Origin: Coriaria nepalensis
Taxonomy: Eukaryota > Streptophyta > Magnoliopsida > Cucurbitales > Coriariaceae
Reading direction: 5' to 3'
Length of the DNA stretch: 64,000 bases
NCBI GenBank assembly: GCA_027186245.1
Contig: CP114483.1
Location: 12,668,220-12,732,219 of the forward strand
Shown: positions 36,101 through 63,941 of the stretch, piece by piece
Layout of the letters: each line of letters opens with the position of its first letter
Position numbering within the stretch: the first letter of the stretch is position 1
The notes under the pieces: generated by a model
What the model was told of the DNA's origin: nothing
What the model saw: only the letters and a program-made list of their open reading frames with translations
Database searches by the model: none
Program-made: the position numbers and the translations under genes

Positions 36101-36315
36101 TAGCCTTAAAAAGCATGTCATTCAGTCTTTTCATGTCATTAAATTGTTTGATAGCACATCGAACCAATTATATGTCTGCATTTAAAACACTACTTTCATG
36201 CATAACTTGCAAATGATCTATTGAAGAAAACTATGCATTTTTTTAGCCTTAAAGTCGTATTATTGCGTCTCTTTTGGTCATTAAATCAGTCAAAATCACT
36301 TCGTACGAAATTCGC
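33196..36315. repeat. Clean satellite island
   Basis: Seven complete repeats (starting 33201, 33621, 34041, 34461, 34881, 35301 and 35721) and the start of an eighth (36141) are free of indels. Private marks are TTTTGCTCA (about 33337), GAAGACAGC (about 35246) and CTATTGGAG (about 35380). The repeat at 36141 is of the GATAGC/AAATCAGTC type. Clean sequence stops near 36316, where CGCAGTTTAAAC reads CGCATTTAAAC. Confidence 0.85.
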
Positions 36316-39300: not shown

Positions 39301-39924
39301 TTCAAGGCACAACGCATTTGTTTAGCCTTAAAATCATGTCATTGAGTCTCTTGTAGTCATGAAATCATTTTAATTAATCAACGAATCTATTTTCGCCCCT
39401 TCAAACATGATTTTCTTACATAACTTGCATAATTAATCTATTGAAGACAACAATGCATTCCTTTAGCCTTAAAAAGCATGTCATTCAGTCTTTTCATGTC
39501 ATTAAATTGTTTGAAAGCACATCGAACCAATTATATGTCTGCATTTAAAACACTACTTTCATGCAATAACTTGCAAATGATCTATTGGAGAAAACTATGC
39601 ATTTTTTTAGCCTTAAAGTCGTATTATGCGTCTCTTTTGGTCATAAATCATTCAAAATCACTTCGTACGAAAATTCGCAGTTTAAACATGACTTTCGTGC
39701 ATAACTTGCCGTTCATCGATTCAAGCAACAACGCATTTGTTTAGTCTTAAACTCATGTGCTTGAGTCTCTTGTAGTCATGAAATCATTTTAATTAATCCG
39801 AACGAATTCTATTTTCGCCCTTCAAACATGATTTTCTTACATAACTTGCAATTAATCTATTGAAGACAACAATGCATTCCTTTAGCCTTAAAAAGCATGT
39901 CATTCAGTCTCTTCATGTCATTAA
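36316..39924. repeat. Indel-ridden satellite, noisy block 2
   Basis: The 420-bp repeat continues with scattered indels and some substitution clusters, for example CAAACCCACTTCG and TTCCCCGTC near 37980-38005. Some stretches within the block are clean for 200 bases or more. Open frames of 60-92 codons on both strands here (36485-36763, 37024-37243, 37445-37679, 37909-38091, 39478-39744) all translate repeat sequence from shifted frames and are not genes. The CTATTGGAG mark at 39580 also occurs 4.2 kb upstream in clean sequence. Confidence 0.82.
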
Positions 39925-40410
39925 TTGTTTGAAAGCACATCGAACCAATTAGATGTCTGCACTTAAAACACTACTTTCATGCATAACTTGCAAATGATCT
40001 ATTGAAGAAAACTATGCATTTTTTTAGCCTTAAAGTCGTATTATTGCGTCTCTTTTGGTCATTAAATCATTCAAAATCACTTCGTACGAAATTCGCAGTC
40101 TAAACATGACTTTCGTGCATAAGTTGCCGTTGATCGATTCAAGGCAACAACGCATTTGTTTAGCCTTAAAATCATGTCATTGAGTCTCTTGTAGTCATGA
40201 AATCATTTTAATTAATCCGAACGAATTCTATTTTCGCCCTTCAAATATTATTTTCTTACATAACTTGTAATTAATCTATTGAAGACAACAATGCATTCCT
40301 TTAGCCTTAAAAAGCATGTCATTCAGTCTTTTCATGTCATTAAATTGTTTGATAGCACATCGAACCAATTATATGTCTGCATTTAAAACACTACTTTCAT
40401 GCATAACTTG
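39925..40410. repeat. Short clean satellite island
   Basis: About 485 bp is free of indels, holding a TTAGATG repeat with CAGTCTAAAC and ATAAGTTGCC and the start of a GATAGC/AAATCAGTC repeat. Private changes are CAAATATTATTTTC (about 40240) and ACTTGTAATT (about 40264). Noise resumes with an extra G in ACTTGGCAAATG at 40411. Confidence 0.75.
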
Positions 40411-43400
40411 GCAAATGATCTATTGAAGAAAACTATGCATTTTTTTAGCCTTAAAGTCGTATTATTGCGTCTCTTTTGGTCATTAAATCAGTCAAAATCA
40501 CTTCGTACGAAATTCGCAGTTTAAACATGACTTTCGTGCATAACTTGCCGTTCATCGATTCAAGGCAACAATGCATTTGTTCTACCTTAAAATCATGTCA
40601 TTGAGTCTCTTGTAGTCATGAAATCATTTTAATTAATCCGAACGAATTCTATTTTCGCCCTTCAAACATGAATTTTCTTACTAACTTGCAATTAATCTAT
40701 TGAAGACAACAATGCATTCCTTTAGCCTTAAAAAGCATGTCATTCAGTCTTTTCATGTCATTAAATTGTTTGAAAGCACATCGAACCAATTATATGTCTG
40801 CATTTAAAAACACTACTTTCATGCATAACTTGCAAATGATCTATTGAAGAAAACTATGCATTTTTTTAGCCTTTAAAGTCGTATTATTGCGTCCTCTTTG
40901 GTCATTAAATCATTCAAATCACTTCGACGAAATTCGCAGTTTAAACATGAACTTTCGTGCATAACTTGCGTTCATCCGTTCAAGGCAACAACGCCTTAGT
41001 TAACCATAAAATCATGTCAGTTGAGTCCCCTCTTGTAGTCATGAAATCATTTTAATAAGCGCGAACGAATTCTATTTTCGCCCTTCAAACATGATTTTCT
41101 ACATAACATGCAATTAATCTATGAAGACAACAATGCCGTCCTTTAGCCTTAATAGCATTCATACAGTCTTTTCATGTCATTAATTGTTTGAAAGCACATC
41201 GAACCAATTATATGTCTGCATTTCAAACACTACATTCATGCATAACTTGCAAATGATCTATAGTGAAGAAACTATGTACATTTTTTTAGCCTTAAAGTCG
41301 TATTATTGCGTCTCTTTTGGTCATTAAATCATTCAAAATCACTTCGTACGAAATTCGCAGTTTATACATGACTTCGTGCATAACTTGCCGTATCGATCAA
41401 GGCAACAACGCATTTGTTTATCCATCAAATCATGTCATTGAGTCTCTTGTAGTCATGAAATCATTTTAATTAATCCGAACGCAATCGATTTCGCCCTTAA
41501 ACACATGATTTTCTTCATAACTTGCATTAATCTATTGAAGACAACAATGAATTGCTTTAGCCTTAAAAGCCATGTCATTCAGTCTTTCTATGTCATTAAA
41601 ATTGATTGAAAAGCACATCGAACCAATATATGTCTGGCATTTAAAACCCTACTTTCTTGCATAACTTGCAAATGATCTTTAAAGGAAAACCTGCATTTTT
41701 TTAGCTTAAAGTCGTATTATTGCGTCTCTTTTGGTCATTAAATCATTCCAAATCACTCGTACGAAATTGCGCTTGTAAACATGACTTTCGTGCATAACTT
41801 GCCGTTCATCGAGTCAAGGCCAACTACGCATTTGTTTATCCATAAATCATGTCCATAGAGTCTTTAGTCATGAAATCATTTTAATCTAATCCGAACGAAT
41901 TCGATTTTCGCCCTTCAAACATGATTTTCTTACATAACTTGCAATTAATCTTTGAAGACAGCTATGCATTCCCTTAGCCTTAAATAGCATGTCATTCAGG
42001 TCTTTTCCTGTCATTTAATTGTTTGAAAGCACATCGATACCAATTATATGTCTGCACTTAAAACACTACTTTCATGCATAACTTGCAATGATCTATTGAA
42101 GAAAAACTATGCATTTTTTTAGCCTTAAGTCGTATTATTGCGTCTCTTTTGGTCATTAAATCATTCAGAGTCACTTCGTACGAATTCGGCAGTTTAATCA
42201 TGACTTCGTGCATAACTTGCCGTCCATCGATTCAAGGCAACCACGCATTTGTTTAACCTTAAAATCATGTCATGGAGTCTCTTGTAGTCTATGAAAACAT
42301 TTTAATTAATCCGAACGAATTCTATTTTCGCCCTTCAAACATGATTTTCTTACATAACTTGCAATTAATCTATGAAGACAACAATGGCATTTCCTTTAGC
42401 CTTAAAAAGGCATGTCATTCAGTCTTTTCATGTCAATAAATTGTTTTGGAAGCACATCGAACCAATTAATGTCCCTGCCACTTAAAACACTACTTCATGC
42501 ATAACTTGCAAATGATCTATTGAGAAGACTATGCATTTTTTTAGCCTTAAATGTCGTATTATTGCGTCTCTTTTGGTCATTAAATCATCCAAAATCACTT
42601 CGTACGAAATTCGCAGTTTAAACATGACTTTTCGTGCATAACTTGCCGTTCATCGATTCAAGGCAACAACCGATTTGTTTAGCTAAAAACATGTCATGAG
42701 TCTCTTGTAGGTCATGAAATCCATTTTAATTTAATCCGAACGATTCTATTTTCGGCCCTTCAAACAAGTTTTTCTTACATAACTTGCATTACTCTATTGA
42801 AGACAACAATGCATTCCTTTAGCCCTTAAAAAGCATGTCATCAGTCTTTTCATGTCATTAAATTGTTTGATAGCACATCAAACCATTAGATGTCCTGCAT
42901 TTAAAACACTACTTTCATGCATAACTTGCAAATGATCTATTGAAGTAAACTATGCATTTTTTTAGCCTAAAGTCGTATTATTGCGTCTCTGTGGTCCATT
43001 AAATCAGTCAAAATCACTTCGTACGAAATTCGCAGTTAAACTGACTTTCGTGCATAACTTGCGTTCATCGATTCTAGCAACAATGCATTTGTTTAACCTA
43101 AAAACATGTCATTGAGTCTCTTGTAGTCATGAAATCATTTATTAATCCGACGAATTCTATTTTCGCCCCTTCAAAACATTATTTCTTACATAACTTGCAA
43201 TTAATCTATTGAAGACAACAATGCATTCCTTTAGCCTAAAAAGCATTGTCATTCAGTCTTTTCAAGTCATTAAATTGTTTGATAGCACATCTGAACCAAT
43301 TATATGTCTGCACTTAAAACACTCTTTTCATGGCATAACTTGCAAATGATCTATTGAAGAAAACTATGCATTTTTTTAGCCCTTAAAGCCGTATTATGCG

Positions 43401-46400
43401 TCTCTTTTGGTCATTAAATCATTTCAAAAATACTTAGTACGGAAAATCGCAGTTTAAACATGACTTTCGTGCATACTGCCGTTCATCGATTCTAAGGCAA
43501 CAACGCATTTGTTTAAACCTTCAAATCATGTCATTGAGTCCTCTTGTAGGTCATGAAATCATTTTAATTAATCCGAACGAATTCTATTTTCGCCCTTCAA
43601 TCATGTTTTCTTACATAACCTTGTCAATTAATCTATTGAGACAACAATGCATTCCTTTAGCACTCTAAAAGCCATGGCATTGTCAGTCTTTTCATGTCAT
43701 TAAATTGTTTTTGAAAGCACATCGAACCAATTATATGTCTGGCTAGTTAAAAACCTACCTTTCATGCATAACTTGCAATGAATCTTTTGAAGAAAACTAT
43801 GCATTTTTTTAGCCTTAAAGTCGTATAAGCATTGCGTCTCTTTTGGTCCCTTAAATCATCCAAAATCACTTCGTACGAGATTCGCAGTTTAAACATGCCT
43901 TTCGAGCATAACTGCCGTTCATTGATCAAGGCAACAACGCATTTGTTTATCCATAAAATCATGTCATTGAGTCTCTTGAGTCATGAAATCATTTTAATTA
44001 ATCCGAACGAATCTATTTTCGCCCTTCAAACATGATTTTCTTACATAACCTTGCAATTATCCTATTGAAGACACAATGCATTCCTTTAGCCTTAAAAAGC
44101 ATGTCTTCGTCTTTTCATGTCATTAAATGGTTTGAAAGCACATCGAACCATTATATGTCTGCATTTAAAAACACTACTTTTCATGGCATAACTGCAAATG
44201 ATCATTGAAAGAATATGCATTTTTTTAGCCTTAAAGTCGTATATTGCGTCTCTTTTGGTCATAAAATCATTCAAAATCACTCGTACGAAAATTCGCAGTT
44301 TAAACAGGACTTTCGAGCATAACTTGCGTTCATCGATCAAGGCAACACGCATATGTTTATCCATAAAATCATGTCCATTGAGTCCTCTTGTAGTCATGAC
44401 ATCATTTTAATATAATCCGAACGAATTCTATGTTCGCCTACAAACATGATTTTCTACATAACTTGCAATTAATATATTGTAGACAACAATGCCATTCCTT
44501 TAAGCCTTAAAAAGCATGTCATTCAGTCTTTTCATGTCATTAAATTGTTTGAAAGCACATCGAACCAATATATATGTCTGCACTAAAAACATCTACTTTC
44601 ATGCATACCTTGCAAATGGATCTATTGCAAGAAAACTATGCTTTTTTTAGCCTTAAAGTCGCTATTATTGCGTCTCTTTGGTCATTAAATCATCAGAATC
44701 ACTTCGTACGAAATTCGCAGTTTAAACATGACTTTCGTGCATAACTTGCCGTTCAGCGATTCAAAGCAACAACGCATTTGTTTAACCTTAAAATCATGTC
44801 ATTGAGTCTCTTGTAGTCATAAATCATTTTAATTAATCCGAACGGAATTCTATTTTTCGCCCTTCAAACATGGTTTTCTTACATAACTTTGGCCCTATTA
44901 ATCTATTGAAGACAACAATGGCATTCCTTTAGCTTAAAAAGCATGTCCATGCCAGTCTTTTTCATGTCATTAAATTTGTTTGGAAGCACATCGGAACCAA
45001 TTATATGTCTGCACTTAAAACACTACTTTCATGCATAACTTGCAAAATGATCTATTGAAGAAAACTATGCATTTTTTTAGCCCTTAAAGTCGTAATATTG
45101 CGTCTCTATTGGTCAATTAAATCATCAGAATCACTTCGTACGATATTCGCAGTTAAACATGACCTTTCGAGCATAACTTGCCGTTCCATCGATTCAAGGC
45201 AACAACGCATTTGTTTAGCCTAAAATCATTTCATTGAGTCCTCTTAGTAGTCATGAATTCATTTTATTAATCCGAACGGAATTCTATTTTCGCCCTCAAA
45301 CATGATTTTTCCTTACATAACTTGAATAATCTATTGAAGACAACAATGCATTCCTTTAGCCTTAAAAAGCATGTCATTCAGTCTTTCATGTCATTAAATT
45401 GTTTGATAGCACATCGAACCAATTATATGTCTGCACCTTAAAACACTACTTCATGCATAACTTGCAAATGAATCTATGAAGAAAACTATGCATTTTTTTT
45501 AGCCTTACAGTCGTATTATTGGGTCCCTCTTTGGTCATTATAAATCATTCAAAATCACTTCGTACGAAATTCGCAAAGTTTAAACTGACTTTCGTGCATA
45601 ACTTGCGTTCATCGATTCAAGGCAACAACGCATTTGATTTAGCCTTAAAATCATGTCCTTGAGGTCTCTTGTAGTCATGAATCATTATAATTAATCCGAA
45701 CGAATTCTATTTTCGCCCTTCAAACATGATTTTCTTACAACCTTGGCAATTATCTATTGAAGACAACAATGCATTCCTTAAGCCTTAAAAAGCATGTCAA
45801 TTCAGTCTTTTCATGTCATTAAATTGTTTGATTAGCACATCGAACCAATTATATGTCTGGCACTTAAAACAGCTACTTTTCATGCATAACTTGCAAATGA
45901 TCTATTGAAGAAAACTATGCATTTTTTTTAGCCTGAAAGTCGTATATTGCGTCATCTTTTGGTCATTAAATCATTCAAAATCACTTCGACGAAATTCGCA
46001 GTTTAAACATGACTTTCGTGCATAACTTGCCGTTCATCGATTGCACGGCAAACAAACGCATTTGTTTAGCCTTAAATCATGTCATGGAGTCTCTTGTAGT
46101 CATGAAATCGTTTGTAATTAATCCGAATCGAATTCTATTTTTCGCCCTTCAAACATGTTTTTCTTACATAGTTTGCAAATTATCTATTGACAACGACAAA
46201 AGCATTCCTTTAGCCTTAAAAGCATGTCATGCGGTCTTTTCATGTCATACAATTGTTTGATAGCAACATCGAACCTATATATGTCTGCATTTAAAACACT
46301 ACTTTCATGCAGTAACTTGCATGAAATCTATTGAAGAAAACTATGCATTTTTTTAGCCTTAAAGTCGTAATATTGCGTCCTCTTTTTGGTCATTAAATCA

Positions 46401-49400
46401 TTCATAAATAACTTCGTACGAATTCGCAGTGTTAAACATGACTTTCGTGCATAACTTGCCGTTGATCGATTCAAGGCAACATCGCATTTGTTTAGCCTAA
46501 AATCATGTCATGAGTCCTCTTTAGTCATGAAATCATATTAATTAATCCGAACGGAATTCTATTTTCGCCCTTCAAACAGATTTTCTTACATAACTTGCAA
46601 TTAATCTATTGAGGACAACAATGCATTCCCTTTAGCCTTAAAAATGCATGTCACTCAGTCTTTTCATGTCATTAATTGTTTGAAAGCACATCGAACCATT
46701 ATATGTCGCTTTTTAAACACTAGTTTCATGCATAACTTGGCAGATGATCTATGAAGAAAACTATGCATTTTTTAGCCTTAAAGTCGTATTATTGCGTCTC
46801 TTTTGGTCCTTTAAATCATTCAAACTCATTCGTACGAAATTCGCTGTTTAAACTGCCTTTCGTGCATACTTGCGTTCATCGATTCAAGGCAACAACGCAT
46901 TTGTTTAGCCTTAAAATCATGTCATGGAGTCTCTTGTAGTCATGAAATCCATTTTACCATTAATCCGACCGAATTCTATTCGGCCCTTCAAACATGATTT
47001 TCTTACATAACTTGCATTAATCTATGAGACAACCAATGCATTGCCTTAGCTTAAAAAGCATGTCATGCAGTCTTTTCATGTCATTAAATTGTTTGATAGC
47101 ACATCGAACAATTATATGTCTGCACTAAAACCACTACATTTCATGCATATCTAGCAATATGATCTATTGAAGAAAACTATGCATTTTTGTAGCCTTAAAG
47201 TCGTATTAGTTGCGTCTCTATGGTCATTAAAATCATTCAAATCACTTCGTACGAAATTCGCAGTTTAAACAGGACTTTCGTGCATAACTTGCCGTACCTC
47301 GATTCAAGGCAACAACGCATTTGTTTAGCCTTAAAATCACGTCAAAGCAGTCTCTTGTAGTCATGAAATCATTTTATTATCCGATCGAATTCTATTTGCG
47401 CCCTTCAAACATGATTTTCTACATAACTTGCAATTAATCTATTGAAGGACAACAATGCCATTCCTTTAGCCTAAAAAGCATGTCATTCAGTCTTTCATGT
47501 CATTTAAGTGTTGATAGCACATCGACCAATTATATGTCTGCACTTTAAAACACTACTTTCATGCATAACATGCAAATGATCTATTGAAGAAAACTATGCA
47601 TTTTTTTTAGCCTTAACGTCGTATTATGCAGTCCTCTTTTGGTCATTAAAATCATTCAAAATCACTTCGTACGAAAATCGCTGTTTAAACATGACTTTCG
47701 TGCATACATGCCGTTCATCGTATTCAAGGCCAACAACGATTTGCTTAGCCTTAATATCATGTCATTGAGTCTCTGTCGTCATGAAATCATTTTATCTAAT
47801 CCGAACGATTCTATTTTCGCCCTTCAAACATGATTTTTGCTTACATAGTTTGCAATAAATCTATTGAAAACGACAATGCTTCCTATAGCCTTAAAAGCAT
47901 GTCATTCGGTCTTTTTCATGTCATTATTTGTTGGATGAGCACATCGACCAATTATATGTCTGCATTTAAATCACTACTTTCAAGCATAACTTGCATGAAA
48001 TCTATTGATAAGAAACTATGCATTTTTGTTTAGGCCTTAAAGTCGTATTATTGCGGCTCTTTTGGTCATTAAATCAGTCAAAATCATTTCGTACGAAATT
48101 CGCAGTTTAAACATGACTTTCGTGCATAACTTCTGGTTGATCGATTCAAGGCAACAACGCATTTGTTTAGCCTTAAAATCATGTCATTGAGTCTCTTTAG
48201 TCTTGAAATCATTTTATTAATCGAACGAATTCTATTTTCCCCTTCAAACATGATTTTCTTACTACTTGCAATTAATCTATTGAGGACAACAATGCATTCC
48301 TTTAAGCCTTAAAAAGCATGTCACTCAGTCTTTTCATGTCATTAAATAGTTTGAAAGCACATCGAACCAATTATATGTCTGCATTTAAAACACTAGATTT
48401 CAGCATCACTTGCAAATGATCTATGAAGAAAACTATGCATTTTTTTAGCCTTAAAGTCGGATTATTGCGTCTCTTTTGGTCCGGTAAATCATCAAAATCA
48501 CTTCGTACGAAATTCGCAGTATTAACCATGACTTCGTGGCATAACTGCGTTCATCGATTCAAGGCAACAACGCATTTGTTTAGCCTTAAAATCATGTCCA
48601 TTGAGTCTCTTGTAGTCATGAATCATTTTAATTATCCGAACGAATTCTATTTTCCGCCCTTCAACATGATTTTCTTACATAACTTGCAATTAATCTATTG
48701 AAGACAACAATGCTTCCTTTAGCCTTAAAAAGCATGTCCATTCAGTCTTTTCCATGTCATAAATGTTTGATAGCACATCGAACCAATTATATGTCTGCAT
48801 TTAAAAACTATCTTTCATGCATAACTTGCAAATGATCTATTGAAGAAAACTATGCATTTTTTTAGCCTTCAAAGTCCGTATATTGCGTCTCTATTGGACA
48901 TTAAATCATTACAAAATCACTTCGTACGAAATTCGCAGTTTAAACATGACTATCGTGCATAACTGCCGTCATCGCTCAAGGCAACAACGCATTAGTTTAG
49001 CCATAAAATCATGTCATTGAGGTCTCTTTAGTCATGAAATCATTTTAATTAATCCGACGAATTCCTATTTTTTCGCCCTTCAAACATGATTTTTCTTACA
49101 TACTTGTCAAGTAATCCTATTGAAGATCACAATGCATTCCTTTAGCCTTAAAAAGCATGTCATTCAGTCTTTCATGTCATTAATTGTTTGAAGCACCAGC
49201 GACCAATTATCTGTCTGCACTTAAAACACTACTTTCATGCATAACTTGCAAATGATCTATTGAAGAAAACTAGCATTTTTTAGCCTTAAAGTCGTATTAT
49301 TGGGTCTCCTTTTGGTCATTAAATCTATTCAAAATCTCTTCGTACGAAATTCGCAGTTTAACATGACTTTCGTGCATAACTTGCCGTTCATCGATTCAAG

Positions 49401-52400
49401 GCAACAACGGCATTTGTTTAGCCTTATATCATGCATTGAGTCGCTTGTAGTCATGAATCATTTTTAATATCCGAACCGAATTCTATTTTTCGCCCTTCAC
49501 ACATGATTTTCTTACATACTTGCAATAATCTATTGAAGACAACAATGCATTCTTTAGCCTGAAAAAGCATGTCATTCAGTCTTTTCATGTCATTAATTGG
49601 TTTGATAGCACAACGAACCAATTATATGTCTGCACTTAAAACCACTACTTCATGCATAACTTGCAAATGATCTATTGGAAGAAAACTATGCATTTTTTTA
49701 GCCTAAAGTCGTATTATTGCGTCTCTTTTGGTCATTAAATCCTTCAAAACTCACTTCGTACGAAATTCGCCGTTTAAACATGACCTTTCGTGCATACTTG
49801 ACGTTCATCGATTCAAGCAACAACGCATTTGTTTAGCCTTAAAATCATGTCATTGAGTCTCTTGTAGTCCATGACATCATTTTAATTAATCCGAACGATT
49901 CTATTTCGCCCTTCAAACAGGATTTTCTTACATAGATTGCAATTAATCTATTGAAAAAGACAATGCAATCCTTTAGCATAAAATGCATGTCAGTCGGTCT
50001 GTTCATGACATTAATTTGTTTGGATAGGGCACATCGAACCAATTATATGTCTGCATTTAAAACACTACTTTCATGCATAACTTGCTGAAACTATGAAGAA
50101 AACTATGCCATTTTTTTAGCCTTAAGTCGTTTATGCGTCTCTTTTGGTCATTAATCATTCAAAATCATCTTCGTACGAATTCGAAGTTTTAAACATGACT
50201 TTCGTGCATAACTTGCCGTTGATCGATTCAAGCAACAACGCATTTGTTTAGCCATAAAATCATGTCATTGAGTCTCTTTTAGGTCATGAAATCATTTTAA
50301 TTAATCCGAACGAATCTATTTTCGCCTTCAAACATGATTTTCTACTAACTTGCAATTACTCATTGAGGACAAACAATGCATTCCTTAGCCTTAAAAAATC
50401 ATGTCACTCAGTCTTTTCATAGTCATTAAAATTGTTTGAAAGCCACATCGAACCATTATATGCTGCATTTAAAACACTAGTTCTGCTAACTTGCAAATGA
50501 TCTTTGAAGAAAACTATGCATTTTTTTTTAGCCTTAAAGTCGTATTATTGCGTCTCTTTTGGTCATTAAATCATTCCAAAATCACTTCGTAGAACTTCGC
50601 AGTTTAAACATGACTTTCGTGCATAACTTGCCGTTCACGATTCAAGGCAACAACGCATTTGTTAGCTTAAAATCATGTCAATGAGTCTCTTGTAGTCATG
50701 AATCATTTTAATTAATCCGACGAATTCTATTTTCGCCCTTCAAACATGATTTTTTCTTACATAACTTGCAATTAATCTATTGAAGACAACAATGCCATTC
50801 CTTTAGCCTACAAAGCATGTAATTCAGTCTTTTTCATGTCCATTAATAGTTTGATAGCACCATCGAACCAATTATATGTCTGCCATTTAAAACACTACTT
50901 TCATGCATAACTTGCAAATGATCTTTATGAAAGAAAACTATGCATATTTTTAGCCTTAAAGTCGTATTATTGCGTCTCTTTTTGGTCCATTAATCATTCA
51001 AAAATCACTTCGTACGAAATTCGCAGTTTAAACATGACTTTCGTGCCTAACTTGCCGTTCATCGATTCAAGGCAACAATGCATTTGTTTAACCTTACAAT
51101 CATGTCATTGAGTCCGGGTAGTCATGAAATCATTTTAATTAATCCGAACGACATTCTATTTTCGCCTTCAAACATGATTTTCTTACATAACTGCAATTAA
51201 TCTATTGAAGACAACAAATGCATTCCTTTAGCCTAAAAGATGTCTATTCAGTCTTTTCATGTCTTTAAATTGTTGATAGCTCATCGATCCAATTATATGT
51301 CTGCACTTAAAACACTACCTTTCATGCATAACTGCAAATGATCTATTGAAGAAACTATGGCATTTTTTTAGCCTTACAGTCGTATTATTGCGTCCTTTTG
51401 GTCATTAAATCATCATGAATCACTTCGTACGAAATTCGCAGTTAAACATGACTTTCGTCATATAACTTGCCGTTCATCGATCAAGGGCAACAACGCATTT
51501 GTTCTATCCTTTAATCATGTCATTGAGTCTCTTGTAGTCATGAAATCCATTTTAATTAATCGAACGAATTCTATTTTCGGCCCTTCAAACATGATTTTCT
51601 TACAAACTTATAATTAATCTATGAGACAAAATGCGTTCCTTTAGCCTTAAAAAAGCATGTCATTCAGTCTCTTCAGTCATTATATTGTTTGAAAGGCACA
51701 TCGAACCAATTAATGTCTGCAATTAAACACTACTTTCATGCATAACTTGCAAATGGATCTATTGAAGAAAACTATGCATGTTTTTAGCCTTAAAGCTGTA
51801 TTATTGCGGCTCTTTTGGTCAGTAAATCATCAGATCACTTCGTACGAATTCGCAGTTTAAACATGACTTTCCGTGCATAACTTGCCGTTCATCCGGATTC
51901 CAAGGCACTAACGCATTTGTTTAACCTTAAAATCATGTCATTGAGTCCTCTTTGTAGTCATGAAAATCATTTTTAATTAATCCGAACGAATTCTATTTTT
52001 CGCCCCTTCAAACATTATTTTCTACATAACTTGCAATTAATCTATGAAGACCAACAATGCATTCCGTTAGCCTTAAAAAGCATGTCAGTCAGTCTTTTCA
52101 TGTCATTAAATTGTTTGAAAGCACATCGAACCAATTATATGTCTGCATTTAAAACACTACTTGCAAATGATCTATTGAAGAAAACTATGCATTTTTTTTT
52201 AGCCTTAAAGTCGTATTTTGCGTCTCTTGTGGTCAATAATCAATCAAAATCACTTCGTACGGAAATCGCAGTTAACCATGACTTTCGTGCATAACTGCAG
52301 TTCATCGATTCAAGCAACAACAGCATTTGATTAGCCTTAAAATCATGTCCATGGAGTCTCTGTAGTCCATGAAATCATATTATTTAATCCGAACGAATTC

Positions 52401-52575
52401 TATTTTCGCCCTTCAAACATGATTTTCTTACATAACTTGCAATTAATCTATTGAAGGACAACAATGCATTCCTTTAGCCCTTAAAATGCATGTCATTCAG
52501 TCTTTTTCATGTCATAAATTGTTTGATAGCACATCGGACCAATTATATGTCTGCACTTAAACACTACTTTCATGC
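40411..52575. repeat. Indel-ridden satellite, noisy block 3, ends at the gap
   Basis: This is the longest and noisiest block: single-base deletions and insertions occur every few tens of bases, with occasional larger losses such as about 13 bp near 52161 (ACTACTTGCAAATG). The repeat and its variant types are still recognisable throughout. From about 42934 the order of rare variants equals that of the clean block after the gap. Many 60-100-codon frames appear here on both strands and are error products. No gene, RNA or mobile element is seen. Confidence 0.85.
42934..52575. repeat. Probable false duplicate of 52676-62322 (noisy rendering)
   Basis: Rare variants occur in the same order in both blocks at an offset of about 9.71-9.75 kb: TTCAAGTCAT (43261 and 53011), CATTGAT (43920 and 53652), CAGAATC (44694 and 54432), GGAAGCAC (44982 and 54711), TTGGGTC (45519 and 55244), GTTTGC (46171 and 55883), CAGTCGGTC with CATGACAT (49991 and 59720), AAATCATGTCACTCAG (50397 and 60131), ACTTATAATT (51607 and 61343) and CGGACC (52535 and 62281). 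Lengths are about 9642 and 9647 bp, or 23 repeats. A few sites disagree, for example AAATCAGTC at about 48075, and GAAAGC/GCATTT near 52125. Confidence 0.88.
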
Positions 52576-52675
52576 NNNNNNNNNNNNNNNNNNNNNNNNN
52601 NNNNNNNNNNNNNNNNNNNNNNNNNNNNNNNNNNNNNNNNNNNNNNNNNNNNNNNNNNNNNNNNNNNNNNNNNNN
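52576..52675. other. Assembly gap, 100 N
   Basis: There are exactly 100 N, a conventional placeholder for a join of unknown size. The left edge ends in CATGC and the right edge starts with GATCT. In the repeat these two are separated by only 13 bases, so the two edges are nearly in phase. Because the sequence before the gap repeats the sequence after it, the real distance is probably negative (an overlap of about 9.6 kb). Confidence 0.97.
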
Positions 52676-55121
52676 GATCTATTGAAGAAAACTATGCATT
52701 TTTTTAGCCTTAAAGTCGTATTATTGCGTCTCTTTTGGTCATTAAATCAGTCAAAATCACTTCGTACGAAATTCGCAGTTTAAACATGACTTTCGTGCAT
52801 AACTTGCCGTTCATCGATTCAAGGCAACAATGCATTTGTTTAACCTTAAAATCATGTCATTGAGTCTCTTGTAGTCATGAAATCATTTTAATTAATCCGA
52901 ACGAATTCTATTTTCGCCCTTCAAACATGATTTTCTTACATAACTTGCAATTAATCTATTGAAGACAACAATGCATTCCTTTAGCCTTAAAAAGCATGTC
53001 ATTCAGTCTTTTCAAGTCATTAAATTGTTTGATAGCACATCGAACCAATTATATGTCTGCACTTAAAACACTACTTTCATGCATAACTTGCAAATGATCT
53101 ATTGAAGAAAACTATGCATTTTTTTAGCCTTAAAGTCGTATTATTGCGTCTCTTTTGGTCATTAAATCATTCAAAATTACTTCGTACGAAATTCGCAGTT
53201 TAAACATGACTTTCGTGCATAACTTGCCGTTCATCGATTCAAGGCAACAACGCATTTGTTTAACCTTAAAATCATGTCATTGAGTCTCTTGTAGTCATGA
53301 AATCATTTTAATTAATCCGAACGAATTCTATTTTCGCCCTTCAAACATGATTTTCTTACATAACTTGCAATTAATCTATTGAAGACAACAATGCATTCCT
53401 TTAGCCTTAAAAAGCATGTCATTCAGTCTTTTCATGTCATTAAATTGTTTGAAAGCACATCGAACCAATTATATGTCTGCATTTAAAACACTACTTTCAT
53501 GCATAACTTGCAAATGATCTATTGAAGAAAACTATGCATTTTTTTAGCCTTAAAGTCGTATTATTGCGTCTCTTTTGGTCATTAAATCATTCAAAATCAC
53601 TTCGTACGAAATTCGCAGTTTAAACATGACTTTCGTGCATAACTTGCCGTTCATTGATTCAAGGCAACAACGCATTTGTTTATCCATAAAATCATGTCAT
53701 TGAGTCTCTTGTAGTCATGAAATCATTTTAATTAATCCGAACGAATTCTATTTTCGCCCTTCAAACATGATTTTCTTACATAACTTGCAATTAATCTATT
53801 GAAGACAACAATGCATTCCTTTAGCCTTAAAAAGCATGTCATTCAGTCTTTTCATGTCATTAAATTGTTTGAAAGCACATCGAACCAATTATATGTCTGC
53901 ATTTAAAACACTACTTTCATGCATAACTTGCAAATGATCTATTGAAGAAAAATATGCATTTTTTTAGCCTTAAAGTCGTATTATTGCGTCTCTTTTGGTC
54001 ATTAAATCATTCAAAATCACTTCGTACGAAATTCGCAGTTTAAACATGACTTTCGTGCATAACTTGCCGTTCATCGATTCAAGGCAACAACGCATTTGTT
54101 TATCCATAAAATCATGTCATTGAGTCTCTTGTAGTCATGAAATCATTTTAATTAATCCGAACGAATTCTATTTTCGCCCTTCAAACATGATTTTCTTACA
54201 TAACTTGCAATTAATCTATTGAAGACAACAATGCATTCCTTTAGCCTTAAAAAGCATGTCATTCAGTCTTTTCATGTCATTAAATTGTTTGAAAGCACAT
54301 CGAACCAATTATATGTCTGCACTTAAAACACTACTTTCATGCATAACTTGCAAATGATCTATTGAAGAAAACTATGCATTTTTTTAGCCTTAAAGTCGTA
54401 TTATTGCGTCTCTTTTGGTCATTAAATCATTCAGAATCACTTCGTACGAAATTCGCAGTTTAAACATGACTTTCGTGCATAACTTGCCGTTCATCGATTC
54501 AAGGCAACAACGCATTTGTTTAACCTTAAAATCATGTCATTGAGTCTCTTGTAGTCATGAAATCATTTTAATTAATCCGAACGAATTCTATTTTCGCCCT
54601 TCAAACATGATTTTCTTACATAACTTGCAATTAATCTATTGAAGACAACAATGCATTCCTTTAGCCTTAAAAAGCATGTCATTCAGTCTTTTCATGTCAT
54701 TAAATTGTTTGGAAGCACATCGAACCAATTATATGTCTGCACTTAAAACACTACTTTCATGCATAACTTGCAAATGATCTATTGAAGAAAACTATGCATT
54801 TTTTTAGCCTTAAAGTCGTATTATTGCGTCTCTTTTGGTCATTAAATCATTCAGAATCACTTCGTACGAAATTCGCAGTTTAAACATGACTTTCGTGCAT
54901 AACTTGCCGTTCATCGATTCAAGGCAACAACGCATTTGTTTAGCCTTAAAATCATGTCATTGAGTCTCTTGTAGTCATGAAATCATTTTAATTAATCCGA
55001 ACGAATTCTATTTTCGCCCTTCAAACATGATTTTCTTACATAACTTGCAATTAATCTATTGAAGACAACAATGCATTCCTTTAGCCTTAAAAAGCATGTC
55101 ATTCAGTCTTTTCATGTCATT

Positions 55122-56801
55122 AAATTGTTTGATAGCACATCGAACCAATTATATGTCTGCACTTAAAACACTACTTTCATGCATAACTTGCAAATGATCT
55201 ATTGAAGAAAACTATGCATTTTTTTAGCCTTAAAGTCGTATTATTGGGTCTCTTTTGGTCATTAAATCATTCAAAATCACTTCGTACGAAATTCGCAGTT
55301 TAAACATGACTTTCGTGCATAACTTGCCGTTCATCGATTCAAGGCAACAACGCATTTGTTTAGCCTTAAAATCATGTCATTGAGTCTCTTGTAGTCATGA
55401 AATCATTTTAATTAATCCGAACGAATTCTATTTTCGCCCTTCAAACATGATTTTCTTACATAACTTGCAATTAATCTATTGAAGACAACAATGCATTCCT
55501 TTAGCCTTAAAAAGCATGTCATTCAGTCTTTTCATGTCATTAAATTGTTTGATAGCACATCGAACCAATTATATGTCTGCACTTAAAACACTACTTTCAT
55601 GCATAACTTGCAAATGATCTATTGAAGAAAACTATGCATTTTTTTAGCCTTAAAGTCGTATTATTGCGTCTCTTTTGGTCATTAAATCATTCAAAATCAC
55701 TTCGTACGAAATTCGCAGTTTAAACATGACTTTCGTGCATAACTTGCCGTTCATCGATTCAAGGCAACAACGCATTTGTTTAGCCTTAAAATCATGTCAT
55801 TGAGTCTCTTGTAGTCATGAAATCATTTTAATTAATCCGAACGAATTCTATTTTCGCCCTTCAAACATGATTTTCTTACATAGTTTGCAATTAATCTATT
55901 GAAAACGACAATGCATTCCTTTAGCCTTAAAAAGCATGTCATTCGGTCTTTTCATGTCATTAAATTGTTTGATAGCACATCGAACCAATTATATGTCTGC
56001 ATTTAAAACACTACTTTCATGCATAACTTGCATGAAATCTATTGAAGAAAACTATGCATTTTTTTAGCCTTAAAGTCGTATTATTGCGTCTCTTTTGGTC
56101 ATTAAATCATTCAAAATCACTTCGTACGAAATTCGCAGTTTAAACATGACTTTCGTGCATAACTTGCCGTTGATCGATTCAAGGCAACAACGCATTTGTT
56201 TAGCCTTAAAATCATGTCATTGAGTCTCTTGTAGTCATGAAATCATTTTAATTAATCCGAACGAATTCTATTTTCGCCCTTCAAACATGATTTTCTTACA
56301 TAACTTGCAATTAATCTATTGAGGACAACAATGCATTCCTTTAGCCTTAAAAAGCATGTCACTCAGTCTTTTCATGTCATTAAATTGTTTGAAAGCACAT
56401 CGAACCAATTATATGTCTGCATTTAAAACACTAGTTTCATGCATAACTTGCAAATGATCTATTGAAGAAAACTATGCATTTTTTTAGCCTTAAAGTCGTA
56501 TTATTGCGTCTCTTTTGGTCATTAAATCATTCAAAATCACTTCGTACGAAATTCGCAGTTTAAACATGACTTTCGTGCATAACTTGCCGTTCATCGATTC
56601 AAGGCAACAACGCATTTGTTTAGCCTTAAAATCATGTCATTGAGTCTCTTGTAGTCATGAAATCATTTTAATTAATCCGAACGAATTCTATTTTCGCCCT
56701 TCAAACATGATTTTCTTACATAACTTGCAATTAATCTATTGAAGACAACAATGCATTCCTTTAGCCTTAAAAAGCATGTCATTCAGTCTTTTCATGTCAT
56801 T
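55122..56801. repeat. Four-repeat higher-order unit, copy 1 (1680 bp)
   Basis: Order of repeat types: TTGGGTC (55122); TAGTTTGC with GAAAACGACA and CATTCGGTC (55542); GCATGAAATCT with GATCGATT, TGAGGACAAC and CACTCAGTC (55962); ACTAGTTTC (56382). Note that GCATGAAATCT differs from the usual GCAAATGATCT by several bases at once, which looks like a small rearrangement rather than independent substitutions. Confidence 0.8.
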
Positions 56802-58481
56802 AAATTGTTTGATAGCACATCGAACCAATTATATGTCTGCACTTAAAACACTACTTTCATGCATAACTTGCAAATGATCTATTGAAGAAAACTATGCATT
56901 TTTTTAGCCTTAAAGTCGTATTATTGCGTCTCTTTTGGTCATTAAATCATTCAAAATCACTTCGTACGAAATTCGCAGTTTAAACATGACTTTCGTGCAT
57001 AACTTGCCGTTCATCGATTCAAGGCAACAACGCATTTGTTTAGCCTTAAAATCATGTCATTGAGTCTCTTGTAGTCATGAAATCATTTTAATTAATCCGA
57101 ACGAATTCTATTTTCGCCCTTCAAACATGATTTTCTTACATAACTTGCAATTAATCTATTGAAGACAACAATGCATTCCTTTAGCCTTAAAAAGCATGTC
57201 ATTCAGTCTTTTCATGTCATTAAATTGTTTGATAGCACATCGAACCAATTATATGTCTGCACTTAAAACACTACTTTCATGCATAACTTGCAAATGATCT
57301 ATTGAAGAAAACTATGCATTTTTTTAGCCTTAAAGTCGTATTATTGCGTCTCTTTTGGTCATTAAATCATTCAAAATCACTTCGTACGAAATTCGCAGTT
57401 TAAACATGACTTTCGTGCATAACTTGCCGTTCATCGATTCAAGGCAACAACGCATTTGTTTAGCCTTAAAATCATGTCATTGAGTCTCTTGTAGTCATGA
57501 AATCATTTTAATTAATCCGAACGAATTCTATTTTCGCCCTTCAAACATGATTTTCTTACATAGTTTGCAATTAATCTATTGAAAACGACAATGCATTCCT
57601 TTAGCCTTAAAAAGCATGTCATTCGGTCTTTTCATGTCATTAAATTGTTTGATAGCACATCGAACCAATTATATGTCTGCATTTAAAACACTACTTTCAT
57701 GCATAACTTGCATGAAATCTATTGAAGAAAACTATGCATTTTTTTAGCCTTAAAGTCGTATTATTGCGTCTCTTTTGGTCATTAAATCATTCAAAATCAC
57801 TTCGTACGAAATTCGCAGTTTAAACATGACTTTCGTGCATAACTTGCTGTTGATCGATTCAAGGCAACAACGCATTTGTTTAGCCTTAAAATCATGTCAT
57901 TGAGTCTCTTGTAGTCATGAAATCATTTTAATTAATCCGAACGAATTCTATTTTCGCCCTTCAAACATGATTTTCTTACATAACTTGCAATTAATCTATT
58001 GAGGACAACAATGCATTCCTTTAGCCTTAAAAAGCATGTCACTCAGTCTTTTCATGTCATTAAATTGTTTGAAAGCACATCGAACCAATTATATGTCTGC
58101 ATTTAAAACACTAGTTTCATGCATAACTTGCAAATGATCTATTGAAGAAAACTATGCATTTTTTTAGCCTTAAAGTCGTATTATTGCGTCTCTTTTGGTC
58201 ATTAAATCATTCAAAATCACTTCGTACGAAATTCGCAGTTTAAACATGACTTTCGTGCATAACTTGCCGTTCATCGATTCAAGGCAACAACGCATTTGTT
58301 TAGCCTTAAAATCATGTCATTGAGTCTCTTGTAGTCATGAAATCATTTTAATTAATCCGAACGAATTCTATTTTCGCCCTTCAAACATGATTTTCTTACA
58401 TAACTTGCAATTAATCTATTGAAGACAACAATGCATTCCTTTAGCCTTAAAAAGCATGTCATTCAGTCTTTTCATGTCATT
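56802..58481. repeat. Four-repeat higher-order unit, copy 2 (1680 bp)
   Basis: It follows copy 1 directly with the same order: a plain GATAGC repeat (56802, with TTGCGTC instead of TTGGGTC), TAGTTTGC/GAAAACGACA (57222), GCATGAAATCT/TGAGGACAAC (57642, with private TTGCTGTTGATC) and ACTAGTTTC (58062). Confidence 0.8.
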
Positions 58482-60581
58482 AAATTGTTTGATAGCACAT
58501 CGAACCAATTATATGTCTGCATTTAAAACACTACTTTCATGCATAACTTGCAAATGATCTATTGAAGAAAACTATGCATTTTTTTAGCCTTAAAGTCGTA
58601 TTATTGCGTCTCTTTTGGTCATTAAATCATTCAAAATCACTTCGTACGAAATTCGCAGTTTAAACATGACTTTCGTGCATAACTTGCCGTTCATCGATTC
58701 AAGGCAACAACGCATTTGTTTAGCCTTAAAATCATGTCATTGAGTCTCTTGTAGTCATGAAATCATTTTAATTAATCCGAACGAATTCTATTTTCGCCCT
58801 TCAAACATGATTTTCTTACATAACTTGCAATTAATCTATTGAAGACAACAATGCATTCCTTTAGCCTTAAAAAGCATGTCATTCAGTCTTTTCATGTCAT
58901 TAAATTGTTTGATAGCACATCGAACCAATTATATGTCTGCACTTAAAACACTACTTTCATGCATAACTTGCAAATGATCTATTGAAGAAAACTATGCATT
59001 TTTTTAGCCTTAAAGTCGTATTATTGGGTCTCTTTTGGTCATTAAATCATTCAAAATCACTTCGTACGAAATTCGCAGTTTAAACATGACTTTCGTGCAT
59101 AACTTGCCGTTCATCGATTCAAGGCAACAACGCATTTGTTTAGCCTTAAAATCATGTCATTGAGTCTCTTGTAGTCATGAAATCATTTTAATTAATCCGA
59201 ACGAATTCTATTTTCGCCCTTCAAACATGATTTTCTTACATAACTTGCAATTAATCTATTGAAGACAACAATGCATTCCTTTAGCCTTAAAAAGCATGTC
59301 ATTCAGTCTTTTCATGTCATTAAATTGTTTGATAGCACATCGAACCAATTATATGTCTGCACTTAAAACACTACTTTCATGCATAACTTGCAAATGATCT
59401 ATTGAAGAAAACTATGCATTTTTTTAGCCTTAAAGTCGTATTATTGCGTCTCTTTTGGTCATTAAATCATTCAAAATCACTTCGTACGAAATTCGCAGTT
59501 TAAACATGACTTTCGTGCATAACTTGCCGTTCATCGATTCAAGGCAACAACGCATTTGTTTAGCCTTAAAATCATGTCATTGAGTCTCTTGTAGTCATGA
59601 AATCATTTTAATTAATCCGAACGAATTCTATTTTCGCCCTTCAAACATGATTTTCTTACATAGTTTGCAATTAATCTATTGAAAACGACAATGCATTCCT
59701 TTAGCCTTAAAAAGCATGTCAGTCGGTCTTTTCATGACATTAAATTGTTTGATAGCACATCGAACCAATTATATGTCTGCATTTAAAACACTACTTTCAT
59801 GCATAACTTGCATGAAATCTATTGAAGAAAACTATGCATTTTTTTAGCCTTAAAGTCGTATTATTGCGTCTCTTTTGGTCATTAAATCATTCAAAATCAC
59901 TTCGTACGAAATTCGCAGTTTAAACATGACTTTCGTGCATAACTTGCCGTTGATCGATTCAAGGCAACAACGCATTTGTTTAGCCTTAAAATCATGTCAT
60001 TGAGTCTCTTGTAGTCATGAAATCATTTTAATTAATCCGAACGAATTCTATTTTCGCCCTTCAAACATGATTTTCTTACATAACTTGCAATTAATCTATT
60101 GAGGACAACAATGCATTCCTTTAGCCTTAAAAATCATGTCACTCAGTCTTTTCATGTCATTAAATTGTTTGAAAGCACATCGAACCAATTATATGTCTGC
60201 ATTTAAAACACTAGTTTCATGCATAACTTGCAAATGATCTATTGAAGAAAACTATGCATTTTTTTAGCCTTAAAGTCGTATTATTGCGTCTCTTTTGGTC
60301 ATTAAATCATTCAAAATCACTTCGTACGAAATTCGCAGTTTAAACATGACTTTCGTGCATAACTTGCCGTTCATCGATTCAAGGCAACAACGCATTTGTT
60401 TAGCCTTAAAATCATGTCATTGAGTCTCTTGTAGTCATGAAATCATTTTAATTAATCCGAACGAATTCTATTTTCGCCCTTCAAACATGATTTTCTTACA
60501 TAACTTGCAATTAATCTATTGAAGACAACAATGCATTCCTTTAGCCTTAAAAAGCATGTCATTCAGTCTTTTCATGTCATT
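58482..60581. repeat. Higher-order unit, copy 3, five repeats (2100 bp)
   Basis: One extra GATAGC/GCATTTAAA repeat (58482) precedes the usual order: TTGGGTC (58902), TAGTTTGC/GAAAACGACA with CAGTCGGTC and CATGACAT (59322), GCATGAAATCT/TGAGGACAAC with AAATCATGTC (59742), and ACTAGTTTC (60162). The unit thus varies between four and five repeats. Confidence 0.78.
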
Positions 60582-62261
60582 AAATTGTTTGATAGCACAT
60601 CGAACCAATTATATGTCTGCATTTAAAACACTACTTTCATGCATAACTTGCAAATGATCTATTGAAGAAAACTATGCATTTTTTTAGCCTTAAAGTCGTA
60701 TTATTGCGTCTCTTTTGGTCATTAAATCATTCAAAATCACTTCGTACGAAATTCGCAGTTTAAACATGACTTTCGTGCATAACTTGCCGTTCATCGATTC
60801 AAGGCAACAATGCATTTGTTTAACCTTAAAATCATGTCATTGAGTCTCTTGTAGTCATGAAATCATTTTAATTAATCCGAACGAATTCTATTTTCGCCCT
60901 TCAAACATGATTTTCTTACATAACTTGCAATTAATCTATTGAAGACAACAATGCATTCCTTTAGCCTTAAAAAGCATGTCATTCAGTCTTTTCATGTCAT
61001 TAAATTGTTTGATAGCACATCGAACCAATTATATGTCTGCACTTAAAACACTACTTTCATGCATAACTTGCAAATGATCTATTGAAGAAAACTATGCATT
61101 TTTTTAGCCTTAAAGTCGTATTATTGCGTCTCTTTTGGTCATTAAATCATTCAGAATCACTTCGTACGAAATTCGCAGTTTAAACATGACTTTCGTGCAT
61201 AACTTGCCGTTCATCGATTCAAGGCAACAACGCATTTGTTTAACCTTAAAATCATGTCATTGAGTCTCTTGTAGTCATGAAATCATTTTAATTAATCCGA
61301 ACGAATTCTATTTTCGCCCTTCAAACATGATTTTCTTACATAACTTATAATTAATCTATTGAAGACAACAATGCATTCCTTTAGCCTTAAAAAGCATGTC
61401 ATTCAGTCTCTTCATGTCATTAAATTGTTTGAAAGCACATCGAACCAATTAGATGTCTGCATTTAAAACACTACTTTCATGCATAACTTGCAAATGATCT
61501 ATTGAAGAAAACTATGCATTTTTTTAGCCTTAAAGTCGTATTATTGCGTCTCTTTTGGTCATTAAATCATTCAGAATCACTTCGTACGAAATTCGCAGTT
61601 TAAACATGACTTTCGTGCATAACTTGCCGTTCATCGATTCAAGGCAACAACGCATTTGTTTAACCTTAAAATCATGTCATTGAGTCTCTTGTAGTCATGA
61701 AATCATTTTAATTAATCCGAACGAATTCTATTTTCGCCCTTCAAACATGATTTTCTTACATAACTTGCAATTAATCTATTGAAGACAACAATGCATTCCT
61801 TTAGCCTTAAAAAGCATGTCATTCAGTCTTTTCATGTCATTAAATTGTTTGGAAGCACATCGAACCAATTATATGTCTGCACTTAAAACACTACTTTCAT
61901 GCATAACTTGCAAATGATCTATTGAAGAAAACTATGCATTTTTTTAGCCTTAAAGTCGTATTATTGCGTCTCTTTTGGTCATTAAATCATTCAAAATCAC
62001 TTCGTACGAAATTCGCAGTTTAAACATGACTTTCGTGCATAACTTGCCGTTCATCGATTCAAGGCAACAACGCATTTGTTTAGCCTTAAAATCATGTCAT
62101 TGAGTCTCTTGTAGTCATGAAATCATTTTAATTAATCCGAACGAATTCTATTTTCGCCCTTCAAACATGATTTTCTTACATAACTTGCAATTAATCTATT
62201 GAAGACAACAATGCATTCCTTTAGCCTTAAAAAGCATGTCATTCAGTCTTTTCATGTCATT
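60582..62261. repeat. Four repeats of the older type between higher-order units
   Basis: The repeats here lack the TAGTTTGC, GCATGAAATCT and ACTAGTTTC marks. Instead they carry CAATGC with TTTAACC (60582), CAGAATC with ACTTATAATT and CAGTCTCTTC (61002), TTAGATG with GCATTTAAA and CAGAATC (61422), and GGAAGC (61842). The TTAGATG repeat at 61422 is unusual in having GCATTTAAA rather than GCACTTAAA, so it may be a recombinant. Confidence 0.7.
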
Positions 62262-63941
62262 AAATTGTTTGATAGCACATCGGACCAATTATATGTCTGC
62301 ACTTAAAACACTACTTTCATGCATAACTTGCAAATGATCTATTGAAGAAAACTATGCATTTTTTTAGCCTTAAAGTCGTATTATTGGGTCTCTTTTGGTC
62401 ATTAAATCATTCAAAATCACTTCGTACGAAATTCGCAGTTTAAACATGACTTTCGTGCATAACTTGCTGTTCATCGATTCAAGGCAACAACGCATTTGTT
62501 TAGCCTTAAAATCATGTCATTGAGTCTCTTGTAGTCATGAAATCATTTTAATTAATCCGAACGAATTCTATTTTCGCCCTTCAAACATGATTTTCTTACA
62601 TAACTTGCAATTAATCTATTGAAGACAACAATGCATTCCTTTAGCCTTAAAAAGCATGTCATTCAGTCTTTTCATGTCATTAAATTGTTTGATAGCACAT
62701 CGAACCAATTATATGTCTGCACTTAAAACACTACTTTCATGCATAACTTGCAAATGATCTATTGAAGAAAACTATGCATTTTTTTATCCTTAAAGTCGTA
62801 TTATTGCGTCTCTTTTGGTCATTAAATCATTCAAAATCACTTCGTACGAAATTCGCAGTTTAAACATGACTTTCGTGCATAACTTGCCGTTCATCGATTC
62901 AAGGCAACAACGCATTTGTTTAGCCTTAAAATCATGTCATTGAGTCTCTTGTAGTCATGAAATCATTTTAATTAATCCGAACGAATTCTATTTTCGCCCT
63001 TCAAACATGATTTTCTTACATAGTTTGCAATTAATCTATTGAAAACGACAATGCATTCCTTTAGCCTTAAAAAGCATGTCATTCAGTCTTTTCATGTCAT
63101 TAAATTGTTTGATAGCACATCGAACCAATTATATGTCTGCATTTAAAACACTACTTTCATGCATAACTTGCATGAAATCTATTGAAGAAAACTATGCATT
63201 TTTTTAGCCTTAAAGTCGTATTATTGCGTCTCTTTTGGTCATTAAATCATTCAAAATCACTTCGTACGAAATTCGCAGTTTAAACATGACTTTCGTGCAT
63301 AACTTGCCGTTGATCGATTCAAGGCAACAACGCATTTGTTTAGCCTTAAAATCATGTCATTGAGTCTCTTGTAGTCATGAAATCATTTTAATTAATCCGA
63401 ACGAATTCTATTTTCGCCCTTCAAACATGATTTTCTTACATAACTTGCAATTAATCTATTGAGGACAACAATGCATTCCTTTAGCCTTAAAAAGCATGTC
63501 ACTCAGTCTTTTCATGTCATTAAATTGTTTGAAAGCACATCGAGCCAATTATATGTCTGCATTTAAAACACTAGTTTCATGCATAACTTGCAAATGATCT
63601 ATTGAAGAAAACTATGCATTTTTTTAGCCTTAAAGTCGTATTATTGCGTCTCTTTTGGTCATTAAATCATTCAAAATCACTTCGTACGAAATTCGCAGTT
63701 TAAACATGACTTTCGTGCATAACTTGCCGTTCATCGATTCAAGGCAACAACGCATTTGTTTAGCCTTAAAATCATGTCATTGAGTCTCTTGTAGTCATGA
63801 AATCATTTTAATTAATCCGAACGAATTCTATTTTCGCCCTTCAAACATGATTTTCTTACATAACTTGTAATTAATCTATTGAAGACAACAATGCATTCCT
63901 TTAGCCTTAAAAAGCATGTCATTCAGTCTTTTCATGTCATT
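62262..63941. repeat. Four-repeat higher-order unit, copy 4 (1680 bp)
   Basis: After four unrelated repeats (60582-62261) the order returns: TTGGGTC with CGGACC and TTGCTGTTCATC (62262), TAGTTTGC/GAAAACGACA with TTTATCCTT (62682; CATTCAGTC instead of CATTCGGTC), GCATGAAATCT/TGAGGACAAC (63102), and ACTAGTTTC with CGAGCC and ACTTGTAATT (63522). Confidence 0.78.

Follow-up and report, generated by a model that had tools for sequence, protein, structure and literature searches.

The two blocks of satellite DNA that lie on either side of a 100-N gap in this assembly are, judging from their letters, very probably one stretch of array written twice, through a missed overlap between two contigs that were set end to end. 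We regard the case as most likely an example of a known assembly fault, here within a satellite array, rather than a feature of biology. That an uncorrected contig end overlaps the next contig had been proposed in a sequence-only reading of this DNA, and the proposal is supported by the dovetail geometry, the register that holds from end to end, the private alleles, the exact anchors and the error spectrum, all of which fit a missed overlap.

The satellite array

The window, i.e., the whole stretch of 64,000 nucleotides analysed here (C3:12668220-12732219, in a genome of 316,458,532 bases in 20 contigs), consists entirely of one satellite array with a unit of 420 bp. The genome gives 41 matches for chlorophyll a/b-binding, which mark a photosynthetic eukaryote that we take to be a green plant. 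Each unit of the satellite comprises three subunits, 136, 141 and 143 bp long, with a mutual likeness of 76-82%, and units within the satellite are about 98-99% alike. Among the matches listed, related units extend along C3 over at least 10.96-13.46 Mb. No Rfam family matched the window at the gathering thresholds, and the one open reading frame of at least 100 amino acids (101 aa) lies in the noisy block. A literature search for trimeric satellites of 420 bp showed none of such length among the records listed, and none of 420 bp was found in the available portion of the literature on Salicaceae satellites (PMC12046899); we make no claim that the satellite is unpublished.

The strand of the satellite changes inside the arrays. 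Among the matches listed, C3 carries it on the + strand at 10.96-12.99 Mb and on the - strand at 13.19-13.46 Mb, and C1 carries it on the + strand at 17.8-19.4 Mb, on the - strand at 23.2-23.6 Mb and again on the + strand at 24.06-24.47 Mb. Both a real inversion and errors of contig orientation are possible explanations of these changes. A single strand flip across the centromere was considered and failed on C1, where the order is +, -, + among the matches listed. In addition, C3:12955066-12987777 contains 12 occurrences of a 27-bp satellite word, and some of its spacings, of 2895 or 2055 bp, suggest longer higher-order periods there.

Layout of the gap and the noisy stretches

Along the window, the array is divided as follows.

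1-30243, + strand: 72 clean 420-bp satellite units (units 0-71), from the consensus walk
30244-33200, + strand: first noisy patch of seven units (72-78), with 12 substitutions, 14 insertions and 8.5 deletions per kb
33201-36140, + strand: clean units 79-85, which separate the noisy patches, from the consensus walk
36141-40762, + strand: mildly noisy units 86-96, with 12 substitutions, 8 insertions and 7 deletions per kb
40763-42933, + strand: fully noisy stretch ahead of the overlap (units 97-102), best register at right unit 0 (+4.1)
42934-52575, + strand: left (noisy) copy, the end of the left contig, from the register, allele and edit tests
52576-52675, no strand: 100-N scaffold gap, an N run
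52676-62322, + strand: right (clean) copy, the start of the right contig, from the register and allele tests
43247-43289 (left) and 52997-53039 (right), + strand: 43-bp anchor pair, exact match
52515-52561 (left) and 62261-62307 (right), + strand: 47-bp anchor pair, exact match
52118-52160, + strand: patch where left and right disagree (two alleles and a 13-bp deletion), from the edit test and alignment

The left block measures 9642 bp and the right block 9647 bp, about 23 units each, which agrees with the sizes given in the earlier reading. The contrast it had drawn between an indel-rich left copy and a right copy free of indels is likewise borne out: to the right of the gap, all 25 whole units walked from 53442 are 420 bp long, as is the unit that precedes them, though 4 of the 25 contain a compensated 2-bp shift. 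Its view that the noise is limited to the block does not hold, however, as 30244-33200 is noisy too, 36141-40762 is mildly so, and the sequence is fully noisy from 40763; heavy noise is thus already present about 2.2 kb ahead of the block start. This counts against the missed overlap as a complete account: noise that precedes the overlap, from 40763 and in the patch at 30244, means that the overlap alone does not explain the noise. The surrounding 200 kb (12.6-12.8 Mb) contain neither other N runs nor further stretches of such noise.

The other noisy stretches were searched against the clean units of the 200 kb, and no convincing source was obtained for either 30244-33200 (best register -0.33 per unit) or 36141-40762 (best +1.90 per unit). 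Judged by eye, the 25-mers exclusive to the noisy units look like recurring single-base errors, not a further copy. Rare alleles, namely G241T with T244A and T148G with C229T, are common to the patch at 30244-33200 and the units near the gap. Furthermore, the six noisy units at 40763-43271 resemble the next six (43272-45820, corresponding to right units 0-5), mostly without the private alleles of the latter; as read from the sequence, this likeness would suggest a real, older six-unit duplication.

One register, shared alleles and exact anchors

For the register comparison, every unit became one row in an alignment to the consensus, and the noisy left units were scored against clean units at the variable columns. 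When the scan was confined to the window, the 22 whole left units from 43272 scored +7.86 log-odds per unit against the right units from 53022, a register in which left unit i pairs with right unit i-103, and all 40 of the other registers listed were negative. When the scan covered 200 kb (421 clean units, 379 registers), the matching register reached +10.28 per unit, as opposed to -4.26 for the next best; it was the only one of the 379 above zero, and the five runners-up ranged from -4.26 to -5.58. Thus, the statement that some 9.6 kb is present twice across the gap holds unit for unit between 42934-52575 and 52676-62322. The z-score of the matching register is only 2.4 because the other registers are widely spread (sd 12.3); how far the runner-up falls behind is more informative. 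Individually, 20 of the 22 left units have their right partner ranked first among the 421 clean units (ties counted as first), and the right partners of the last two whole left units rank 13th and 42nd of 421.

The alleles tell the same register. In the alignment to the consensus, the left copy carries the variant at 81 of the 96 variant sites of the right block, the consensus base at 7, another base at 5 and a gap at 3. Rare alleles of the right block (present in at most 5% of the 421 clean units) recur in the left at 33 of 41 sites, compared with a maximum of 10 of 43 at 37 other shifts. Since alignment to the consensus is biased against variants, we added an edit test, which asks whether reverting a variant increases the edit distance to the right unit. 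Over the 96 right-block variants, the edit test favours the variant in the left at 88, is tied at 6 and favours the consensus at 2; these counts cover the variant sites of the right block, and left-only variants outside the known alleles are indistinguishable from noise.

Several of the shared alleles are private. C156T, C213T, T415A and A21G are each found in one of the 421 clean units, located in the right block, and all of them stand at the matching place in the left. The partial first unit of the right contig has five variants, and each of them is found in the left as well; one of these, T413A, is carried by none of the 421 clean units. Next to the gap, A11T and A21G appear within the final 60 bp of the left contig, and the sole clean carrier of A21G (1 of 421) is the right partner. 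The homology begins with the opening base of the right contig and extends to the final base of the left one, which is the geometry of a dovetail.

Exact matches were also found. Three left-right matches of at least 25 bp are absent elsewhere in the 200 kb, and the 43-bp and 47-bp anchors have exactly two occurrences each in the 316 Mb genome, counting exact occurrences only. The two copies of these anchors lie 9750 and 9746 bp apart, respectively. The earlier observation that rare variants follow in the same order at an offset of about 9.71-9.75 kb is confirmed. The third anchor (27 bp) has 14 exact places genome-wide, and this lack of uniqueness in one of the three counts against the missed overlap.

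It could be argued that similar units of a single array merely fell into this register by chance, as the clean units are near-identical (413-420 of 420 identities to the consensus in units 0-71, with indels in 5 of the 72) and any two blocks look alike. We give this explanation next to no credence and rejected it: every other register scored negative, no other shift approaches the sharing of rare alleles at the matching one, and it is contradicted also by the two anchors that occur exactly twice in the genome.

Nature of the errors in the left copy

Compared with the right copy over 22 units (9240 bp), the left copy has 177 substitutions, 234 inserted bases and 230 deleted bases, an error rate of about 7% in the tail. 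The indel bases adjoin the same base in 338 of 464 cases. Transitions make up 19 of the 177 left substitutions, as against 154 of the 349 distinct variants among clean units (Fisher p 5e-16). With this spectrum, which looks technical, biological decay of the left block was rejected. T-to-G changes are among the commonest kinds of error (34 of 177); the substitution pattern seems to us to differ from typical nanopore error, and we assign no sequencing platform.

The earlier reading had named two places, at about 48075 and about 52125, where the copies differ. The former appears to be a single T-to-G substitution, a common kind of error, and gives no sign of a real difference. The latter stands: the left copy has the consensus base at 52118 and 52148, next to which lies a 13-bp deletion, and the register is restored by 52515 at the latest. 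This discordant patch (52118-52160) weighs against the missed overlap. As far as the sequence can tell, the left copy would otherwise be the right copy plus technical error.

The same patch bears on whether the contigs stem from two parental haplotypes that overlap, such that each block represents one allele, which likewise would make the case a false duplication (heterotype). The patch speaks for this explanation, with its two differing allele sites and 13 bp. However, known satellite alleles are not in excess among the left substitutions (21 of 3204, compared with 193 of 23841 for other bases; 21 observed and 25.9 expected), and thus no second haplotype shows. In addition, consistent allele differences between the copies were not found at the sites that can be decided (2 of 96 against), left-only new alleles being indistinguishable from noise, and 88 of the 96 favour identity. 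Haplotypes of satellites usually differ unless the plant is inbred. We therefore consider two overlapping haplotypes very unlikely.

A possible real duplication in the array

A different objection to the missed overlap comes from clean sequence in the same 200 kb, which contains near-perfect block duplications of its own. To the left of the window, 20 units are repeated at a shift of 22 with one difference (C3:12612781 and 12622020), and to the right, 19 units at a shift of 9 with two differences (C3:12773740 and 12777520). Within the window, 13 units are repeated at a shift of 17 with one difference (12599 and 19738), and 8 units at a shift of 6 with two differences (841 and 3361). With such clean examples nearby, a similar real duplication is not far-fetched. 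The explanation would then be that 23 or more units were truly and recently duplicated, with a contig break within or between the copies and a left copy that is merely unpolished. Assemblers tend to break at block duplications. A missed overlap necessarily gives a dovetail, but the same appearance would result if two contigs ended in separate copies of a longer, truly duplicated block, with an unsized gap between them.

Against this explanation, the closest clean 22-unit pairs in the 200 kb have 10 (left), 22 (right) and 108 (left versus right) differing columns, whereas the blocks here differ at 2 decided sites, a figure to which hidden left-only changes, being uncountable, are not added. It also requires that the gap happens to lie inside the duplicated block and that a separate cause accounts for the raw-read quality of one copy. 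On balance, we hold a duplication with these properties to be unlikely. A true tandem is recognized by two accurate and contiguous copies; in the assembly, a gap lies between the copies and one of them is noisy, which is compatible with a real duplication in the plant, and contiguous clean block duplications do exist elsewhere in the array. A true tandem duplication within a megabase array, covering 23 or more units (over 9.6 kb), so recent that it shows no detectable difference, and standing beside the other block duplications at shifts of 9, 17 and 22 units in the 200 kb, seems to us improbable.

Comparison with known false duplications

The preferred reading, a missed overlap, has parallels in other assemblies. 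According to the available portion of the Vertebrate Genomes Project report (PMC8081667), homotype false duplications arise from overlaps at contig boundaries that become tandem duplicates with a gap after scaffolding, often of read length, and false duplications draw reads and disturb polishing. As in the homotype cases described in that portion, one locus would be present twice here, with a dovetail at the contig ends, a gap and, plausibly, a roughly read-sized block; unlike them, this case concerns the satellite DNA of a plant, and its overlap is visible by the register of rare variants only (PMC8081667). Indeed, the two copies lie on the same scaffold with a gap between them, the dovetail reaches both contig ends, and one copy has an excess of errors, which extends beyond the left copy. 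A length of about one sequencing read is plausible for 9.6 kb. As for haplotype-specific differences, there is no excess of known alleles and one short discordant patch is seen.

Unmerged contig overlaps, in the form of a 13-N gap in Bionano scaffolds, are the target of BiSCoT; in the accessible part of that paper, the cases are usually allelic and one copy tends to remain unpolished (PMC7649008). The resemblance lies in overlapping contigs output in succession, with an N gap and a doubled shared region, and the differences from the cases in that part are that the gap here is 100 N and that the allele signal is limited to one short patch (PMC7649008). Ko et al., in the portion available, give a gap between the copies and low depth as hallmarks of false duplication (PMC9516828). 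The gap and the greater number of errors in the falsely duplicated sequence are common to that portion and to this case; their evidence was read depth and linked reads, unlike ours, which is the sequence itself (PMC9516828).

We propose that the end of the left contig was left uncorrected, probably with poor coverage, and that this tail would extend some 9.6 kb into sequence that belongs to the right contig. An error rate of about 7% in the tail, within units that are about 98-99% alike, might have concealed the overlap from the assembler, and the scaffolder would then have placed one contig directly after the other, with 100 N standing for a gap of unspecified size. Given a 100-N rather than a 13-N gap, the scaffolding step was presumably another one. 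The right contig opens with the letters GATC at 52676, a motif with two occurrences in the consensus unit; a start at such a site might arise by chance (about 2 in 420) or reflect a Hi-C step that used it.

Implications

The relevance of the finding is mainly for users of this assembly and low beyond it, although the case illustrates that the register of rare variants can reveal a missed overlap within an array of near-identical units. The array at this place is probably about 23 satellite units too long in the assembly, and much of the 22 kb to the left of the gap is uncorrected sequence. Work on the diversity of the satellite or the turnover of its units in this array would take the noise for variation.
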